The notes beneath the pieces were generated by a model. That model saw nothing but the letters and a program-made list of their open reading frames with translations, was not told where the DNA came from and did no database searches. Position numbers and translations under genes: made by a program. Below are positions 1 through 7,610 of a stretch of 42,023 nucleotides of DNA, in pieces (positions within the stretch are counted from its first letter, which is position 1; every line of letters starts with the position of its first letter). Source of the DNA: Candidatus Pacearchaeota archaeon (GTDB taxonomy: Archaea; Nanobdellota; Nanobdellia; Pacearchaeales; GW2011-AR1); assembly GCA_018221305.1 (NCBI GenBank), contig JAAOYK010000044.1:1-42023 (forward strand). Reading direction: 5' to 3'.

Positions 1-1099
1 GATCAATAGTAATACTGTCCCCAATCTTTAAGGAAGGGCTAAACAATCCCCCAGCATATTCATAAATTTCTTTTACTCCCCGGACAACTCCGCCACCATT
101 AAATCTAAGTTCCCCCCAGTTACTTAAAGGATGAATTAGATTAGGAGCACCAGTAAAAAGTTTCCCTAACAAACGCCCTTCAAGAGGTACATCTCTATCT
201 TTTCCAGGTTGAAGATTTGTTCCAAGATTTTTATTCAGCTTAAACGGCTTATAGATTCCTCTGTTTCCTTTTACATGATGATTCATCAAATGTGCATAAT
301 ATTTAAACTTGTCAAATTCTAATTGTTTATCTTGAAAAATAAAAGCTTCTAAATTATCAATTTCTTCTTTTGTACCAAGCTGTTTTACAACAGGATTTAA
401 CCATTTGTAGAATTGTTCTAAATAATGCTGTACTGAAACCTCCTCTTGCCTATGATTGATGTCTATTTTTATAGAATCATGTCTTCCATTTGGTAAACAT
501 AAACCTTTTATATTAAGGCTAGATCTTGGATACATGAATTTTTCACAATCAGAACTTTTTGCAATATCATATGAACCAAAAAGCAGGGCTGCGGCATTTA
601 TCTGCTCTTCATTATTTATTGAATCTCCTAACAATTCAAGACGTCCCTCATTAAGTTTACAAGTACGCATAGCAATACCTATAGACATTGGAGTCAAAGT
701 AAACATATAAAAAGGTACTGATAAAGGTTGAAAATAATCAGTACAACCCGTGTTGGAATCAGCAGAAAAATTCCAGTGCATAGAATATCCTGTAAAATAG
801 TGTGTAGGAGAAGATTCTAAAACTTTGTTACGTCCAAGAACCAACATGTCAGTAAGCCTTGATGAAAAACCTTTATTTATTGCAATAGGAGGTGTTAAAA
901 TCTCAATCTCATCACCATCAATATAAAACCCATGTCCAGTATCTGTTCGTATAGCTGTAGGTGAAATTTTGTAAACATCCTTAAATTTTTTCTTTAATGA
1001 CCTAAAATGACGTTTTTGAAAAGAAAGACCTTTACTGTTCATAAGACCATCATAAAACATTATTAATTCATTTTCAATACCAATATATCTGTCTGTCAT
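1..1099 (-). CDS. PafA/Dop-like amidoligase paralogue (3' end outside window)
   Basis: Open for 366 codons from the ATG at 1099 to the window edge, so the C-terminus is missing. It is a clear paralogue of the gene at 2210-3568: both start R-Y-I-G-I-E-N-E-L and share RTDTGHGFYID, an EIEI-x-TPPI segment and GYSMHWN. These match in order and approximate spacing the signature of the Pup ligase/depupylase branch of the glutamine-synthetase/GCS fold (GxExE, YxD, ExxTP, HxN), whose acidic and histidine residues bind Mg-ATP. By family knowledge such enzymes make or break isopeptide/amide bonds; the substrate here is unknown. It begins 2 bp after the stop of the beta-lactamase-fold gene and is last of four co-directional genes. 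No signal peptide is seen, so it should be cytoplasmic. Superfamily fairly likely; exact role open. Confidence 0.6.
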   Translation of the reverse strand, partial: MTDRYIGIENELIMFYDGLMNSKGLSFQKRHFRSLKKKFKDVYKISPTAIRTDTGHGFYIDGDEIEILTPPIAINKGFSSRLTDMLVLGRNKVLESSPTHYFTGYSMHWNFSADSNTGCTDYFQPLSVPFYMFTLTPMSIGIAMRTCKLNEGRLELLGDSINNEEQINAAALLFGSYDIAKSSDCEKFMYPRSSLNIKGLCLPNGRHDSIKIDINHRQEEVSVQHYLEQFYKWLNPVVKQLGTKEEIDNLEAFIFQDKQLEFDKFKYYAHLMNHHVKGNRGIYKPFKLNKNLGTNLQPGKDRDVPLEGRLLGKLFTGAPNLIHPLSNWGELRFNGGGVVRGVKEIYEYAGGLFSPSLKIGDSITID

Positions 1100-1101
1100 T
1101 T

Positions 1102-2208
1102 TTATAAATCCCTTTGCAGATCATAATGATCTTTAATAGTTTTCATTAAATTAAAATAAACATCATACACATCAGTGCCTCTACTAGCTCTGTCCTGCCA
1201 AAGATTAAGCCAACCTTTTCTAGGCTTAGTGTCACAAGATTGATAATCACCACTAGATTTTTGGTCAGATTTTTTAATAGAAAATGGTGACAAGCTTGAG
1301 AATGATTCAGATGTTGCCAAACCATCATTTCTCCAATACATTAGATCCTCGTCATCAAAATCATCTCGAAAGTCATCTCCAAAATCATATCTTGATAAAG
1401 TTGGACCGCCAAATATAGATCCAAGAAAAGATGTTTTTACTTTGTTAGCCATCATACAAACAATCAAATCATTATTAATTATCCCTACTTCATGAATATC
1501 ACTACCATCATCATGATCTGAAATATGTCCAACCTTTGCCTTAATATTTTTTTTCTTAAAACCACCGAAGTCAAGAAAAGAAGGCGAAGTGAATGAAAAA
1601 AAGCGATCAGCAGCCTTTCTTATTGGTTCTGCAAGTTTTGAAAAATTTGGATCATAAATATGGCGCATAACTTTAACCATATCATCAGGGGTTGTTATGT
1701 TACTCCCATCAGGATTAATCTTACTAGTATATCGTGGGACACCAGAACATAACAAATGACCAAGCATACTTTTTTTCATACCAAGTTCTCGCATTGTTTT
1801 ATTAATCGTTTGCGGTCCACCAATATAATCTGCAAGTATGTTTGTTGCCTCATTATCTGATGTAACCATCATATGATAAATTAGTTCAGCAACACTTAGC
1901 TTTGTTCCAAGGGGTAATCCAGAAACATAATCAGTATGTTCTAATAAAAATTCATGGTTTATTGGAAGTTTTGTTTTAAGCGATAAGTCTCCATCATATA
2001 TTTCTTTTAAAGCAGAAACCATTACTGGAACTTTAATAATTGAAGCCGCCCAACCGAATTTTTTGCCATTAACACTAGCAATCTCTCCAGTAGTAAGATC
2101 ATGCACACTAACTTTTATATCTGCATCTATTTCATTTTCTGCAAGCTTTACTACCTTTTCCAGGCCTTTTTGCAATGCTTTATTTTTTATTTTTTTTCTA
2201 TTTTTCAT
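1102..2208 (-). CDS. class A beta-lactamase-fold serine hydrolase (penicillin-recognising fold)
   Basis: About 368 residues. The serine nucleophile motif S56-I-I-K59, the S117-D-N119 motif and K225-V-G227 (in place of K-T/S-G) appear in order, with a typical ITTPDDM helix between the second and third. That identifies a class A beta-lactamase/D-Ala peptidase fold. The omega-loop ExxLN motif holding the deacylating glutamate of true beta-lactamases is not visible, so antibiotic hydrolysis is not implied. No signal peptide precedes the domain; the start is lysine-rich, so the enzyme is probably cytoplasmic, unusual for this fold. The region after residue 260 is aspartate-rich and unlike the family. 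The ATG at 2208 was chosen because it lies one base after the upstream TAA, the same TAA-A-ATG junction as at 3570; an in-frame TTG at 2217 is less likely. Confidence 0.75.
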   Translation of the reverse strand: MKNRKKIKNKALQKGLEKVVKLAENEIDADIKVSVHDLTTGEIASVNGKKFGWAASIIKVPVMVSALKEIYDGDLSLKTKLPINHEFLLEHTDYVSGLPLGTKLSVAELIYHMMVTSDNEATNILADYIGGPQTINKTMRELGMKKSMLGHLLCSGVPRYTSKINPDGSNITTPDDMVKVMRHIYDPNFSKLAEPIRKAADRFFSFTSPSFLDFGGFKKKNIKAKVGHISDHDDGSDIHEVGIINNDLIVCMMANKVKTSFLGSIFGGPTLSRYDFGDDFRDDFDDEDLMYWRNDGLATSESFSSLSPFSIKKSDQKSSGDYQSCDTKPRKGWLNLWQDRASRGTDVYDVYFNLMKTIKDHYDLQRDL

Positions 2209-2209
2209 T

Positions 2210-3568
2210 TTATGCAACAGGAATTTCTACCGTTTCGTCCAAAGTTTTAACACCAGTATCAGTTGGATAAGTTGTTTTTATTATGCATTTCGGATCAAAC
2301 GCACTAATTTTAACTCCTTCAAAAGCAGAATCTGGCATATCAAACAACAATACACGATTTGTTCTACCTTTAACTTCATAATCAATCGGTCCAGGGAAAC
2401 ATGGAAAAAATTTAAGGATCGCTTGCCGATTAATATTTTCAATGCCTGTGACATAATAATCATTCAGTTCTAAAAGAACCCTTCCAGGCCCATGCTTTAT
2501 TTGGGAACGTTTAATTGACACCTCATCCCAAGCAATTTTATCAATATCTCTTCCATGTTGTCTGACAAATTCGCCCCATAATTTGTTTTCTAATGGTAAC
2601 TTTGTTTTTCCACTTTTTTGAAGTACTGTCCCTGGAAAATCCGGGTTACTAGTTTTAAAGGGTTCATATACTCCATCATCTTTTAATCCAATTTCTTCTA
2701 TATAATTATAATAATCAAACTTATCAAATTCTAAAGGTTTTTCTCCATAAACAAAATCTTTTAAATTTTTAACTTCTTTTAAAGATCCAAGTTCTTCTAT
2801 AGTAGGTTCTAACCATCTATAAAACGATTCAAAATATTTTTGACCAGTCACCAATTCAGTACAACGGTAAGGAAAAACATTTGTAAACGCTTTAAAAAGA
2901 TCTTTTCGATCATTTAGCATCTCCTTACTAGAAGTTATATCAGGAATATTATACGCAAAAAAAGGAAGTTTAAATGCATTTTTCTCTAATGCAGTCATGT
3001 ATGAACCTAAAAGTAATGCTGTAGCATTAATTTGATCCTCATTATTAATAGAATCACATAAAAGTTCATAACGATGCCACTGTTTCTGTCGTGAGGCTAT
3101 CCCACATGAAATCGGTGTTGTCCCTAAAAATTGAAAAGGAATCCAAACTCCTTGAAAAAGTAAGTTGTAAGGATTTCCCATTCCGCAAAAGTCTTCACTT
3201 CTTTTGGTCAAATTCCAATGCATTGAATACCCTGTATATTCATGCTGCGGGTTTGCTGCAAGAACTTTATCTCTTCCAATAAATAATGAATCTGTAAGAC
3301 GAGACGCAAATCCTGGATTTATTTCAATCGGCGGGGTCACAATTTCAATCTCTTCATCATCAATATAAAATCCATGTCCAGTATCTGTTCGTATAGCAGT
3401 ATGTGAAATATTATAAACATGCTCAAACTGTTTTTCCAAATTTCTAAAATATCTATTATTCTTTAGATTTCTAGGCTCGTCTATATCAAAATCGTCAGGA
3501 TAATCAATCAATTCCCCTTTTTCAAACGTCATTAATTCATTTTCAATTCCAATGTAACGTTTTTTCAT
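2210..3568 (-). CDS. PafA/Dop-like amidoligase (GCS/glutamine-synthetase fold)
   Basis: 452 residues. Putative Mg-ATP ligands: E9 and E11 in GIENE, Y68-I-D70 followed by E75 and T78-P-P80, and H117-W-N119. The order and spacing resemble Pup ligase PafA and depupylase Dop, where the Y-x-D aspartate is the catalytic base. A segment reading R-x-ELL-x-DSINNE-x-QINA is shared with the paralogue at 1-1099. Family members couple ATP to isopeptide formation or, in Dop, hydrolyse the bond. No small Pup-like protein ending in GGE or GGQ is seen nearby. It is sandwiched between the amidase-fold and beta-lactamase-fold genes with 1-bp gaps, so it is almost certainly co-translated. The start at 3568 matches the paralogue's N-terminus; a GTG at 3625 would add 19 residues overlapping the upstream gene. 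Confidence 0.6.
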   Translation of the reverse strand: MKKRYIGIENELMTFEKGELIDYPDDFDIDEPRNLKNNRYFRNLEKQFEHVYNISHTAIRTDTGHGFYIDDEEIEIVTPPIEINPGFASRLTDSLFIGRDKVLAANPQHEYTGYSMHWNLTKRSEDFCGMGNPYNLLFQGVWIPFQFLGTTPISCGIASRQKQWHRYELLCDSINNEDQINATALLLGSYMTALEKNAFKLPFFAYNIPDITSSKEMLNDRKDLFKAFTNVFPYRCTELVTGQKYFESFYRWLEPTIEELGSLKEVKNLKDFVYGEKPLEFDKFDYYNYIEEIGLKDDGVYEPFKTSNPDFPGTVLQKSGKTKLPLENKLWGEFVRQHGRDIDKIAWDEVSIKRSQIKHGPGRVLLELNDYYVTGIENINRQAILKFFPCFPGPIDYEVKGRTNRVLLFDMPDSAFEGVKISAFDPKCIIKTTYPTDTGVKTLDETVEIPVA

Positions 3569-3569
3569 T

Positions 3570-4196
3570 TTATTCATCAAGAAAAAGAGAAAATGATTCT
3601 CCTGGACAGTTTGTAAGTCTTTCACACAAAGTTCTTAAACGCCTATTTAATGGATTTAAAGATTTTGCAAATTCTAATACTTCTCTTGATAATTCTCTAA
3701 AACGTTTCTTACCAACAATTAAATTACTTGTATCAAATACCTTCCCTATGCCTTGTTTTTGTGCAAGATCATTAATATGATCAACTTGTGCTTGAGTATG
3801 TGACTTCATTTTGATGTTAGGATACAAATTCTTAAGAAACTCAATAGATTGCTGCATTCTAACTACATTATTTGGAGAAACTTTACCATTATCTGAATAA
3901 TAACAAAGCCCAATAGATTTAGTATTAAGCCCGAGGGTATGTGCTCCTTCTACATTAAATGGTCGTGTCTGAGATACATTAGCAGTTTTATCAACATACA
4001 AGTGATACCCAACCCCGTTCCAGCCTAAACCCTTATGACACGCAAAAAGATCTTCAAAAGCAGGATATTTATAAGTTGAATGTAATACTAAATATTCAGG
4101 TTTATTTTTCCTTAAACCGGTTTTGTCTAATGCATATATCCTATCATAAAAGACATTACTTTTAGAAGATCCACACCCCTCTAAATGTAATTCCAT
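3570..4196 (-). CDS. N-acetylmuramoyl-L-alanine amidase/PGRP-fold hydrolase
   Basis: 208 residues with the amidase type 2 (T7 lysozyme/PGRP) pattern: LVLHST with H39 as probable first zinc ligand, GWNGVGYHLYVD at 58-69, GAHTLGLN at 84-91, SIGLCY at 94-99 and KSHTQAQ with H133 as second ligand. The CPG normally a few residues after that His is here at C197-P-G199, after an insertion of about 60 residues, so the zinc site may be remodelled. Family enzymes cleave the amide linking muramic acid to L-Ala. There is no signal peptide, so it would act inside the cell, and archaea lack murein. First gene of the amidoligase operon; a TATA element lies 25 bp upstream and a purine-rich GAGGTG lies at 4205-4210. 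Confidence 0.75.
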   Translation of the reverse strand: MELHLEGCGSSKSNVFYDRIYALDKTGLRKNKPEYLVLHSTYKYPAFEDLFACHKGLGWNGVGYHLYVDKTANVSQTRPFNVEGAHTLGLNTKSIGLCYYSDNGKVSPNNVVRMQQSIEFLKNLYPNIKMKSHTQAQVDHINDLAQKQGIGKVFDTSNLIVGKKRFRELSREVLEFAKSLNPLNRRLRTLCERLTNCPGESFSLFLDE

Positions 4197-4260: not shown

Positions 4261-4614
4261 TTATTCCTCACTAATAGCATAAATATTGCCGGTTTTGCTC
4301 AAATTTCTGATTAATTCCCTATTTTGTAGGGGATCTTTCTTTTGAGCTACGATAATTTTTCGTGCATTAACAAAAGCTTTGCAAAGTTTTAATTTATAAG
4401 GACATTTATGTTCGCAGGCCTTACATAAAGTACAATCAAAAACAATACGTTCAATATGCTTATTATCCAAAATAATTGCTTTCCCTCTTGGCCCATATTG
4501 TTCTTCATGCATAACTTTGAGTACAGGACACAGGTTTTTACATAACCCACATCTAATGCATCTTTCAACAATTTCATTTATTTCCTCTTTAGCATTTTCA
4601 CTCTCCACGCTCAT
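4261..4614 (-). CDS. two-[4Fe-4S] ferredoxin-like subunit (GlcF N-terminal type)
   Basis: 117 residues with two cluster motifs: C19-x2-C22-x2-C25-x3-C29-P and C61-x2-C64-x2-C67-x3-C71-P. The spacing and the PRGKA segment between them match the N-terminal domain of the glycolate oxidase iron-sulfur subunit GlcF and related (Fe-S)-binding proteins, which pass electrons between a flavoprotein and a CCG-domain protein. In bacteria this domain is usually fused to CCG domains; here it stands alone and the CCG part is at 6753-7610. Its ATG overlaps the end of the flavoprotein gene by 17 bp, so the two are translationally coupled. No membrane segment. Confident as a ferredoxin-like electron carrier; the acceptor is unknown. 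Confidence 0.85.
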   Translation of the reverse strand: MSVESENAKEEINEIVERCIRCGLCKNLCPVLKVMHEEQYGPRGKAIILDNKHIERIVFDCTLCKACEHKCPYKLKLCKAFVNARKIIVAQKKDPLQNRELIRNLSKTGNIYAISEE

Positions 4615-6733
4615 TTTCTTCCTCCTTTGCTTGTTTTTTGTCCTTTGATTCAGATCCTAGCCCAAAGCGGTTACTCATTATCTGATTAATTAAATTTCTT
4701 TCTTCCTGAGAAGTTGATCTTTTACTTTGAGGAATACTTGTTGAAAAATCAGTTTGTTTTTGTTGTGGTGGTTCAGGCAACGAAACATCTTTAATTTGAT
4801 TTTTATCAACACCCTCCACTATAATTTCTTTTGATCTTTCAATTATCGGCTCTTTTTTTGTAGAATAAGTATTAGTCATAATGTTTTGTATCTGCGAATA
4901 ATCAACACCCGGCTTTGTTGCAGGCTTTTCTGAAACTGATGATTCATGCCTTACTTGTTTTTTGTGCACAATCTCTTTTACAACATTTTGCTTTTCTGTC
5001 TTTGTTAAAATTTCTTTATCAAGCCGTCGCGCGGACATATCTTTAGCAACATTTTTTGCAAAATCCTCAATCTTTTTCATACGATCATTTGCAAATTCTG
5101 AATTAAAAGTATCATCATACTCTTTAATTTGTCTGGCCATACGTTTTTTGCGACTTTCTTCCACATTCCTTTGGATAACTGACTCTTGCACAGATTTTTG
5201 ATCAATTAAAGATTCAGGCTTTACTTCTTCACGTTCAAACCGTTTTACTAATTCTCTTGTAGATTTTTCTTCTCCACTAATCGGTTTAGGCAATTGTGAA
5301 AAATCCAGATTCGGTTTTGCAGGCACAGGATCTGGCTCTAAAGAGATTGAAATTGAAGGCTTTATAGGCATTGAAGATCTTACAGGCACTGAAGATGTAG
5401 GGGGCGTAGGAGCGGTTACAGGCTTTGGAGATGTAGATGTTACAGGCATTGGAGGTTTTACCCGAACAATTGGTTTTACAGCAACTTCAGGCCTAGAATA
5501 AACTTCATTAGCACGCTTTGCTTCTTTAACTTCTTTAACATTTTTCAAAATACCCATTTTTTCATCAATCCGGCCAAGTGCCCCTGGAACTTGTTCCATA
5601 CGTTTCAAGGCATTATCTGCCTCAATAATTTTTCCTTTATTTATTTTATAAAAAGGATCATAACGTAACTTTACTCTTTGATAAACTTTTTTTTCGAAAT
5701 TATCTAACAAATATTTTGCTTTAAGACCAATCCCAAAACTTCCTGGTTTTGCTCTCATATTAAAGATAAAATCCATAACTTCTTGTCGCTTATTACCATC
5801 TTCAACCTTAAAAAACGGGTAAACAATTCCTTGCCCAAGATAAGCAAGATAAGGTATTTGACCTTGTTCCAAAAATATCATAAACTCTTTCATTTTGTCA
5901 AAGAAAAATTTAGGATCAATCACATCAATATAATTCTCAGAAAATAAAGACGAAAAAGCTCTTTCAAAAAAACTTGAGACAAGTTCATATTCTTCGCCAT
6001 GTATCTTCCCTCTTTCAGAATCAAAACCAATAATAATATGATATTTTTCTGGAAGCCCAATCAACTTTGCAACATTTGGCTGGAAAAATTGTAACATATT
6101 AACATCTTTTTCAAGTTTAAGCCGCCTTGCAATAGAAAATATTTCTTCCAAATTATCTGTCTGAAAAATTGATGCAGAACGTTTCATCGTAGGTATCACC
6201 TTTAAAGTAGCAGAAACAATAATTCCAGTAATTCCTTCCATACCACAAACATCTGTTAAATCTGCACGGCCTGTTTTTACAATTTCACCACGACCGTTAA
6301 CAAAAACTAACTCTGTAATCCAATCCTTCATTTTTCCATACCTCAGACTAAAACGCCCATTCGCATTAGTAGCAATCATTCCACCAATTGTAGAGATACT
6401 AAGATTAGAAGGGATAATCGGAAATTCAAACCCCTTAGCATTTAGCCTTTCATTTAATTCTTTCAAGGTCATTCCGGCTTCAACAGTCACAGTCCTGGCA
6501 GCAGAACTAAAATTCAAAACCTTATTCATTTTTGTCATATCTACAACAATAGAATTATGCGGGACCGCACCACCAACTAATCCAGTACCAGCCCCCCGAG
6601 GAACAAGATCTTCATGAGGCAGCCGAATAAACTTTTGTACATCTTCAATAACTTTTGGGAATACAACCTTTTTTGCAACACCCAGACTACGTGATGCGTC
6701 AGTATTATATGCAGTCATTTCTTTTTTATTCAT
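4598..6733 (-). CDS. GlcD-like FAD-linked oxidase with long disordered C-terminal extension
   Basis: 711 residues. Residues 1 to about 370 are a GlcD/D-lactate dehydrogenase-type flavoprotein: the FAD-pyrophosphate loop PRGAGTGLVGGAVP at 45-58, a STIGGMIATNANG segment, GMEGITGIIVSATLKVIP, and a C-terminal end reading YDPFYKINKGKII. The family oxidises 2-hydroxy acids such as glycolate or D-lactate. The His-rich metal motif usual in the C-terminal oxidase domain (HxGDGNxH) seems replaced by AYLGQGIVYPF, so substrate use may differ. Residues about 371-711 match no flavoprotein domain I know: first a Pro/Ser/Thr-rich stretch (425-490), then highly charged, probably helical or disordered sequence with recurring D-F/Y-S-Q-like motifs (LDFSQL, VDYSQI, TDFSTS). 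Middle gene of a three-gene operon. Confidence 0.85.
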   Translation of the reverse strand: MNKKEMTAYNTDASRSLGVAKKVVFPKVIEDVQKFIRLPHEDLVPRGAGTGLVGGAVPHNSIVVDMTKMNKVLNFSSAARTVTVEAGMTLKELNERLNAKGFEFPIIPSNLSISTIGGMIATNANGRFSLRYGKMKDWITELVFVNGRGEIVKTGRADLTDVCGMEGITGIIVSATLKVIPTMKRSASIFQTDNLEEIFSIARRLKLEKDVNMLQFFQPNVAKLIGLPEKYHIIIGFDSERGKIHGEEYELVSSFFERAFSSLFSENYIDVIDPKFFFDKMKEFMIFLEQGQIPYLAYLGQGIVYPFFKVEDGNKRQEVMDFIFNMRAKPGSFGIGLKAKYLLDNFEKKVYQRVKLRYDPFYKINKGKIIEADNALKRMEQVPGALGRIDEKMGILKNVKEVKEAKRANEVYSRPEVAVKPIVRVKPPMPVTSTSPKPVTAPTPPTSSVPVRSSMPIKPSISISLEPDPVPAKPNLDFSQLPKPISGEEKSTRELVKRFEREEVKPESLIDQKSVQESVIQRNVEESRKKRMARQIKEYDDTFNSEFANDRMKKIEDFAKNVAKDMSARRLDKEILTKTEKQNVVKEIVHKKQVRHESSVSEKPATKPGVDYSQIQNIMTNTYSTKKEPIIERSKEIIVEGVDKNQIKDVSLPEPPQQKQTDFSTSIPQSKRSTSQEERNLINQIMSNRFGLGSESKDKKQAKEEENERGE

Positions 6734-6752
6734 TGTTTATATTACGCTCCTT

Positions 6753-7610
6753 TCATTTTGACCAATCAACATCTTCAATAGATTCTTCATCATTTATTTC
6801 TTCTTTTAAATTCTTACCCTTTATCACTTCATCTTCTCCATCAATAGCTTCTTCTCGCACTATTTCTTCTTTTTTTATGCCCAAAGCTAATGCTAAAACT
6901 TCACTAAGTTCTAAAATTTCTATCTCAGAACCAACCGCATTTTTTTTCAATAAATCATAATTATCAACAGAAGCAACAATCATTTTTTTAACACCAAGAC
7001 GTTTTGCTTGCACTATTCTCTCTTTAGCAATTTCATCTGCTAATTTAGGGTTACTATAACGCAGCCCTCCACAACTTCCACAACACATAGTATTCATTTT
7101 ATTATCACTCATTTCTACAATTTGATAACCAATAAGTTCTAAAATTTGTCTAGGTTCTTCATAAATGTGCGAATATCGTGCCAAATAACATGAATCATGA
7201 AAAGTTATCATCTCCATTGCTTTAAACTTGATCAATCTTGACTTTTTCGCAAGTTTTTCAGCAATTACTTCCCAAAGATTTCTTATTTCAAGGTCCCAAT
7301 CAGGAAGCAACTCTGAATAATTTTCTAAAAACATTACATATGCGCCAGGAGAATTTGTTATAATACTTTTTATTCCAGCTTCTTTAAAGATTTCAAAATT
7401 ACGTCGCGCGATCTTTCGAGCTTCTTTTTCGTATCCTGCTTCAAATGCCGGAAGTCCAGAACAGACCTTTTTTTCAACCAATTCAAAATCAATACCTAAT
7501 TTTAAAAAGATTTTCTGATAAAGTCCAAAGAAGTCTCTATACTTATGATACGTAGCACATCCTGGAAAGTATGCAACATTACTTTTTCCAAAACCTAAAA
7601 ATTTCCCCAT
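6753..7610 (-). CDS. cysteine-rich CCG-domain protein (HdrB/GlcF C-terminal type)
   Basis: 285 residues with two CCG-type halves. The first has FPGC18ATY and VC50SGLPAFEAG, a variant of the usual CCGxP; the second has FHDSCYLARY near 137-146 and MCCGSCGG near 174-181. These cysteines bind non-cubane iron-sulfur clusters in HdrB, and act in electron transfer in GlcF and LldE. The last 50 residues are acidic and family-atypical. It precedes the flavoprotein gene by 19 bp, so the trio amounts to a split GlcF plus a GlcD, likely one 2-hydroxyacid oxidoreductase complex. An AGGT at 7622-7625 and a TATA-like CTTTAAAAGG (reverse strand, 7651-7660) could drive expression. Confidence 0.85.
   Translation of the reverse strand: MGKFLGFGKSNVAYFPGCATYHKYRDFFGLYQKIFLKLGIDFELVEKKVCSGLPAFEAGYEKEARKIARRNFEIFKEAGIKSIITNSPGAYVMFLENYSELLPDWDLEIRNLWEVIAEKLAKKSRLIKFKAMEMITFHDSCYLARYSHIYEEPRQILELIGYQIVEMSDNKMNTMCCGSCGGLRYSNPKLADEIAKERIVQAKRLGVKKMIVASVDNYDLLKKNAVGSEIEILELSEVLALALGIKKEEIVREEAIDGEDEVIKGKNLKEEINDEESIEDVDWSK

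Follow-up and report, generated by a model that had tools for sequence, protein, structure and literature searches.

A conserved gene cassette of Nanoarchaeota and Woesearchaeota links a predicted PafA/Dop-fold amidoligase family to two muropeptide-type hydrolases

The branch of carboxylate-amine ligases formed by PafA and Dop is known from actinobacterial pupylation and from a few bacterial relatives. Other ligases with the glutamine synthetase (GS) fold are genetically linked with peptidases and, in certain bacteria, also with membrane proteins, as in the amidoligase neighborhoods described by Iyer, Burroughs, and Aravind in 2008 and reportedly in 2009. Here, we analyze a contig of 42,023 bases (the window; contig C25, G000:C25:1-42023) from an incomplete 1.26 Mb genome of a Candidatus Pacearchaeota archaeon, which carries at one end an operon with two GS-fold amidoligases (AL1 and AL2; AL for the family). 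We show that the genes of this family are coupled to those of a zinc amidase, a PBP-A-like serine hydrolase, and, in half of the carriers, a protein with an N-terminal membrane anchor that resembles a beta-propeller. The conserved cassette is real and contains a new amidoligase family, and we did not find its combination of PGRP-type amidase, PBP-A-like hydrolase, and AL, with or without the propeller, described in the literature open to our search, which likewise did not place this set among the neighborhoods of Iyer et al. that it otherwise resembles. The pairing of these enzymes points to unrecognized peptide-joining and peptide-cutting chemistry in uncultured archaea of the symbiont type.

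The operon consists of four co-directional open reading frames (ORFs) on the minus strand, separated in transcription order by 1 bp (amidase end at 3570, AL1 start at 3568), 1 bp (AL1 end at 2210, serine hydrolase ATG at 2208), and 2 bp (serine hydrolase end at 1102, AL2 start at 1099). Since the window is the entire contig, AL2 breaks off where the contig ends, and further genes of the operon may follow. The preliminary description of this DNA had proposed such an operon with 1- to 2-bp gaps, two paralogous amidoligases with GIENE, YID-x4-E-x2-TP, and HWN motifs, and four proteins lacking signal peptides. All of this stands: the ORFs and motifs are where it had placed them, AL1 and AL2 are true paralogues (46 to 49% identity), and hydropathy reveals no hydrophobic signal segment in any of the four. 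The features are as follows.

3570..4196, minus strand: PGRP/T7-lysozyme-type zinc amidase, 208 aa (PF01510 and motifs of its homologues)
4080-4082 (H39), 3798-3800 (H133), and 3606-3608 (C197), minus strand: putative zinc ligands of the amidase, assigned by motif
2210..3568, minus strand: AL1, predicted GS-fold amidoligase, 452 aa; fold assigned through its identity to the modeled AL2
3536-3550 (GIENE), 3329-3367 (YIDxxxxExxTPP), 3212-3220 (HWN), and 3053-3073 (RYELLCD), minus strand: motifs of AL1
1102..2208, minus strand: SxxK serine hydrolase of class A beta-lactamase/PBP-A fold, about 368 aa from the ATG at 2208 (PF13354)
2032-2043 (SIIK), 1852-1860 (SDN), and 1528-1536 (KVG), minus strand: motifs of the serine hydrolase
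2..1099, minus strand: AL2, predicted GS-fold amidoligase, 366 aa with the 3' end lost at the contig end; AlphaFold2 model
1067-1081 (GIENE), 887-925 (YIDxxxxExxTPP), 770-778 (HWN), and 623-643 (RLELLGD), minus strand: motifs of AL2

When genomes sampled from the family, order, class, and phylum were searched with profiles and protein queries, the core AL was recovered in ten of them, that is, the window's own (G000), G055 (JAUSIT01), G166 (JABHNB01), G132 (JANLHM01), G571 (KR13, JAHIPG01), G299, G258, G359 (JAFGDD01, Woesearchaeota), G252, and G453; an eleventh carrier, G549, holds one very divergent AL. Carriers amount to about 2% of the sampled genomes and are Nanoarchaeota/Woesearchaeota, the only groups also returned by a conserved-peptide scan of 84,980 species genomes, which reaches fairly close relatives only. 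Gene orders in the core carriers are listed below (BLA, serine hydrolase; TM, propeller-like protein; //, contig break).

G000: PGRP-AL-BLA-AL
G055: PGRP-AL-AL // AL-AL-AL-TM-BLA, split over two contigs that could, judging by their broken ends, form a single array
G166: PGRP-AL-BLA
G132: PGRP-AL
KR13: PGRP-AL-TM-BLA
G299: PGRP-BLA-AL-TM
G258: PGRP-BLA-AL-TM-AL
G359: PGRP-BLA-AL
G252: PGRP-BLA-AL-TM
G453: lone AL

The amidase is part of the cassette in nine of the ten core carriers and the serine hydrolase in eight, with overlapping genes at many junctions; PF13354, the family to which this hydrolase belongs, turned up in only 18 of the 264 genomes that were sampled for the class. ALs diverge to 26 to 30% identity across carriers, and because the cassette is kept among proteins only about 30% identical, chance is ruled out as the cause of the association. 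In most genomes, the homologues keep both hydrolases adjacent, as the preliminary description would lead one to expect. The fourth gene, found in five of the ten, encodes a protein with a hydrophobic stretch at the N terminus as its membrane anchor; FG-GAP/beta-propeller-like repeats are present in part of the members. Hydrophobic segments also occur in the ligases themselves: AL1 of G258 ends in a clear C-terminal transmembrane segment, and the ALs of G055_E, KR13, G299, and G252 have a hydrophobic stretch at the matching alignment columns. The cassettes of G166 and G132 lie between scpA-like and ribosomal/RNA-polymerase genes (flanks named by inspection), archaeal chromosomal surroundings, so that bacterial contamination is ruled out; these two genomes belong to different genera, and their shared chromosomal place suggests inheritance or a single insertion site. 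Searches of phages, plasmids, and viral contigs found no AL homologue, so that a phage origin is unsupported, and PADLOC found nothing.

By sequence, the window ALs belong to no family in Pfam, NCBIfam, or PHROGs and match no PDB sequence (phmmer/hmmsearch). Pfam gave no match for them at E ≤ 1 and, for seven AL members at E ≤ 5, nothing but a stray TssN match; the PF03136 profile of PafA/Dop found no match in the window's genome at E ≤ 10. We did not consider the weak matches to TssN, to TRI5, and to a designed helical protein meaningful. The relationship emerged from structure prediction. AlphaFold2 reached a pLDDT of only 39 for AL1 on 7 sequences; AL2, modeled instead on a 17-row core alignment, gave a mean pLDDT of 82.1 and a pTM of 0.87. 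The nine best Foldseek matches of this model in the PDB are all Dop or PafA (E 1.1e-9 to 5.9e-7, probability 1.00), led by Dop 7oyh (E 1.1e-9) and PafA 4bjr (E 1.3e-9), followed by YbdK/GCS2 structures (1tt4 at E 4.3e-6, probability 1.00, and another at 3e-5), one further PafA chain, glutamine synthetase 4lnn of B. subtilis (E 6e-5, probability 1.00), and glutamate-cysteine ligases; a viral structure library returned weak matches only. The best structural match thus lies inside the fold named in the preliminary description, whose term "PafA/Dop-like" is apt for the fold but fails as a family assignment.

In the published definition of the carboxylate-amine ligase superfamily (PMC2588565), strand 1 carries GhExE, strands 2 and 3 bear acidic residues, strand 4 has [HD]x[NH], and strand 6 has Ex[RK]x2D; one arginine lies on strand 5 and another in the loop before it, and the core consists of six strands, with helices following the third and the sixth. 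We scored motif conservation on the core alignment of 17 homologue rows, in which GIENE, YxDx4ExxTP, and HWN are invariant or nearly so. GhExE appears as GIENE, GVENE, or GLENE in every row with an N terminus (model strand 5-16) and as GVEDE in G549; D61 and E66 (AL2 numbering; model strands 57-61 and 64-68) as well as H108 and N110 (strand 100-112) are invariant; and the core of the model has six strands in the superfamily order, with helices behind the third and the sixth. Strand 6 has invariant E155 and D159, in a spacing of E-x3-D that is one residue shorter than Ex[RK]x2D and without its Arg/Lys, and R145 (strand 143-146) is nearly invariant, missing in G359, without a second invariant arginine in the loop. 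The motif residues of strands 1 to 4, the order of strands and helices, and the structural match fit a place for AL in the carboxylate-amine ligase superfamily, with a predicted GS/PafA-Dop fold.

We think that AL is best called a new family of this superfamily, with PafA and Dop as the nearest solved structures, because the hallmarks of PafA and Dop are absent. AL shares with them GhExE, YxDx4-5E, HxN, and the presence of paralogues in a single operon, whereas it lacks a PF03136 match, varies from one to five copies, occurs in carriers without Pup, and is linked to an amidase and a serine hydrolase instead of a proteasome. In the motif alignment, strand 6 of PafA/Dop reads [QH]x4D (RRLHV), where AL has its invariant glutamate. 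From HxN to strand 6, AL2 spans about 43 residues compared to about 90 in PafA, without the NTRDEPHA/alpha-loop segment. The Dop-loop comprises 40 to 65 residues before strand 2 (PMC8599861; PMC7947786). AL has no such loop, and its distance of about 50 residues from GIENE to YID is PafA-like. GCS2/YbdK (PF04107) and glutamine synthetase share the fold and the strand 6 glutamate with AL but give no profile match, have Foldseek E values orders of magnitude weaker than those of PafA/Dop, and stand in other gene contexts. In direct comparisons with reference sequences (PafA and Dop taken from the PDB; AcDop joined from two stretches and thus without its Dop-loop), the N-terminal part of C. glutamicum PafA, from GIENE to ExxTP, scored above all 75 decoys and 90 shuffles, the only reference to do so; Dop, YbdK, GS, and glutamate-cysteine ligase sequences did not score clear of decoys, and hhalign against the single E. 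coli relatives YbdK, GlnA, GshA, and PuuA did not exceed them. A C-terminal likeness to PafA ("GEF...DW") is in register without being significant and was not used as proof. As a separate archaeal family with intact catalytic motifs, AL implies that PafA/Dop-fold chemistry serves purposes beyond Pup, and it is a possible relative for reconstructing the origin of the Pup ligase.

Both hydrolase assignments of the preliminary description hold. The amidase matches PF01510 above cut-off (E 3.5e-8) and PHROG amidases, and a profile of eight homologues matches solved PGRPs and T7 lysozyme. H39, Y64 (in GYH), H133, and C197-P-G are invariant in these homologues, with roles assigned by motif; the cassette amidase thus has the H/H/C zinc triad, GYH, and CPG of T7 lysozyme/PGRP proteins, from which it differs by an insert of about 60 residues before the cysteine ligand and by lacking a wall-binding domain and a signal peptide. 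The serine hydrolase matches PF13354 (E 1.7e-34), and the solved structure closest to it is that of Tll2115 (E 5e-24), or PBP-A, an enzyme with poor penicillinase activity (PMC4331424). SxxK, SDN, and KxG, shared with PBP-A and class A beta-lactamases, are kept in all eight homologues, whereas no conserved glutamate equivalent to Glu166 is present in their omega-loop region; the score of 80 is far below the 200-bit NCBIfam cut-off for class A, and the protein has no signal peptide and sits in an archaeal operon. These features make a peptidase, esterase, or acyl-enzyme amidase more likely than a beta-lactamase.

The number of ALs varies between carriers, with one visible copy in seven, two in G258, at least two in the window, and at least five in G055. 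AL1 and AL2 of the window are sisters in the tree (support 94/89), the G055 copies share 56 to 69% identity among themselves and no more than 50% with any other sequence, and the duplications appear to be lineage-specific. The preliminary description had compared the two window genes to a Pup ligase and its opposing depupylase; because copy numbers run from one to five and the duplications are apparently lineage-specific, an opposed pair of the PafA/Dop style is unlikely, and all copies retain the same catalytic residues, with a Dop-loop in neither window copy. The G055 array combines constant and variable segments: the YxDx4E/HWN blocks (AL2 residues 62-108) have 93% amino acid and up to 95% DNA identity and residues 242-266 are 90% identical, while the loops at 109-122, 183-216, and 328-340 fall to 11 to 37%. 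The constant blocks also show fewer synonymous differences (0.15 to 0.18) than most other blocks do (0.31 to 0.37), which suggests some homogenization by gene conversion; the ratio of nonsynonymous to synonymous substitution (dN/dS) over the whole core is about 0.4 to 0.7. Constant catalysis with variable loops looks like diversified recognition of substrates or targets. Three contig ends fall inside AL genes, namely those of loci L009 and L008 (G055 contigs C18 and C31) and position 1 of the window, suggesting that repeats broke the assemblies and that the arrays are longer than visible. C18 terminates with the first 37 residues of another AL copy, which could be the lost start of the first copy on C31.

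We searched the carriers for a tag or wall polymer on which the cassette might act. In agreement with the preliminary description, which saw no Pup-like tag, none of the 11 carriers has a match to the Pup family PF05639 over cut-off, and no small ORF flanking the cassette recurs from locus to locus, apart from that of a ribosomal-type neighbor and ScpA read in antisense. Ten of the 11 carriers, many of them incomplete genomes, lack the Mur-ligase central domain; the exception, G258, has one Mur_ligase_M match (G258:C9:18282-18803, E 5.8e-11). The ten genomes without this domain therefore have no conventional assembly line for peptidoglycan or pseudomurein. Chemistry of the PafA/Dop fold would then operate in organisms without a recognizable peptidoglycan pathway, tied to two cell-wall-type peptide hydrolases.

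We consider the chances evenly balanced that the cassette is a cytoplasmic, membrane-associated peptide-modification system, in which ATP-dependent AL ligases and two muropeptide-type hydrolases act on a putative substrate. With ATP and Mg2+, an AL would phosphorylate a carboxylate and then join it to an amine, yielding an amide or isopeptide bond; known superfamily members usually phosphorylate the gamma-carboxylate of glutamate. Both hydrolases would cut other bonds in the same kind of peptide or glycopeptide. By analogy, this substrate most likely resembles a bacterial muropeptide, because the known substrates of both hydrolase families are almost all muropeptides, with a lactyl-L-Ala amide and a D-Ala-D-Ala-like bond as the bonds cut. 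Extra AL copies probably differ in donor or acceptor and would not represent a ligase and an opposing hydrolase, because they are lineage-born, keep the active site, and have diverged in three loops. The reaction would probably take place at the cytoplasmic face of the membrane, since some ALs have a C-terminal transmembrane-like segment.

Several observations weigh against this proposal: (i) no transmembrane segment is apparent by hydropathy in the four window proteins; (ii) carriers without Pup and, in 10 of 11 cases, without Mur ligase offer no known polymer or tag to act on; (iii) carriers are rare and patchy, and most of their genomes are incomplete; (iv) three of the ten core loci have frameshifts, in the PGRP gene of G166 (L020 8399-8994) and the AL genes of G132 (L021 9122-10167) and G453 (L036 8967-10241), which could reflect decay or assembly error; (v) the structural preference for PafA/Dop (TM-scores of 0.49 to 0.56) over YbdK-type proteins (0.43 to 0.49) is slight; (vi) direct homology to PafA/Dop is weak, with the middle and C-terminal parts of PafA not above decoys or shuffles; and (vii) relaxed constraint on surface loops is a plainer alternative to diversified recognition.

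Among the alternatives, the one that survives best is a narrower form of the peptide-modification system, in which the amidase and the PBP-A-like enzyme dismantle, for scavenging or detoxification, bacterial wall fragments that the symbiotic archaea encounter or import, and AL caps or re-ligates the gamma-Glu peptide. Both hydrolases come from muropeptide-cutting families and have intact active sites, the gamma-glutamyl bond of the stem peptide is the bond type of the ligase superfamily, and the missing Mur-ligase domain in ten carriers would make such fragments foreign. Catabolism nevertheless explains the expansion of AL arrays poorly and the beta-propeller partner not at all, and no importer or other recycling gene was seen in the cassettes. 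We regard this version as less likely than not. In either form, the cassette offers a small, expressible protein set for probing how symbiotic archaea handle muropeptide-like substrates.

Protein tagging appears unlikely to us; in this reading, ALs would attach a small tag unrelated to Pup, or the C-terminal Glu of a protein itself, to lysines or membrane proteins in the manner of PafA, and either the hydrolases or certain AL copies would take it off again. PafA/Dop is the closest fold, the YxDx4ExxTP spacing is as in Dop, loop diversification in arrays would suit different targets, and PafA homologues that are anchored in the membrane and associated with membrane proteins have been described in planctomycetes and deltaproteobacteria (PMC2588565). 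Yet the 11 carriers gave no Pup match over cut-off, no conserved small ORF accompanies the cassette, its hydrolases are not of isopeptidase families, and the elements specific to PafA/Dop are absent. A cassette for a small molecule or peptide natural product used between microbes, such as a gamma-glutamyl peptide or a ribosomally synthesized and posttranslationally modified peptide, is similarly doubtful: GCS2/YbdK and GS are also structural relatives, the loops evolve fast, and the divergent AL of G549 stands beside radical SAM, kinase-like, and Fic proteins, but no conserved precursor peptide lies beside the cassettes and no exporter or synthetase genes lie within them. With about the same reserve, we can envisage a reversible isopeptide chemistry of DPANN archaea independent of Pup and Mur, in which arrays of membrane-associated PafA/Dop-fold ligases, with hypervariable loops for specificity, would build a peptide-linked conjugate or envelope polymer that muropeptide-type hydrolases trim. 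Antibacterial lysis by released or injected hydrolases, with AL as an accessory or immunity enzyme, is highly improbable, since the loci contain no signal peptides, cell-wall-binding domains, or secretion genes and AL would need ATP and has a transmembrane segment in some carriers, even though the peptidoglycan hydrolases known from archaea feature prominently in Nanoarchaeota and about two-thirds of them lack a signal peptide (PMC12352652).

Other genes adjoin the ALs and cassettes. Upstream of the operon, window positions 4261-7610 encode a 4Fe-4S protein, a FAD-binding_4 oxidase whose long tail is disordered, and a CCG-domain protein, likely a three-subunit oxidoreductase unconnected with the cassette. 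The single AL of G453 is followed immediately downstream by a gene whose product resembles, by inspection, a TldD/PmbA-type protease (L036 7267-8862); in other systems, TldD/E proteins have a role in peptide processing. Downstream of the G359 AL, at a distance of about 0.3 kb, a gene resembles, again by inspection, an asparaginyl-tRNA-synthetase paralogue of the archaeal asparagine synthetase type (L027 11852-12883). In G549 (L052, G549:C125, 814-7078), the genes ahead of the divergent AL encode a radical SAM protein, a kinase-like protein, and a trio of proteins with a common N-terminal segment (like LxNxFxQPEKPxEEKKLxV) but different remainders, with a Fic protein next; this could be a separate locus for peptide or protein modification.

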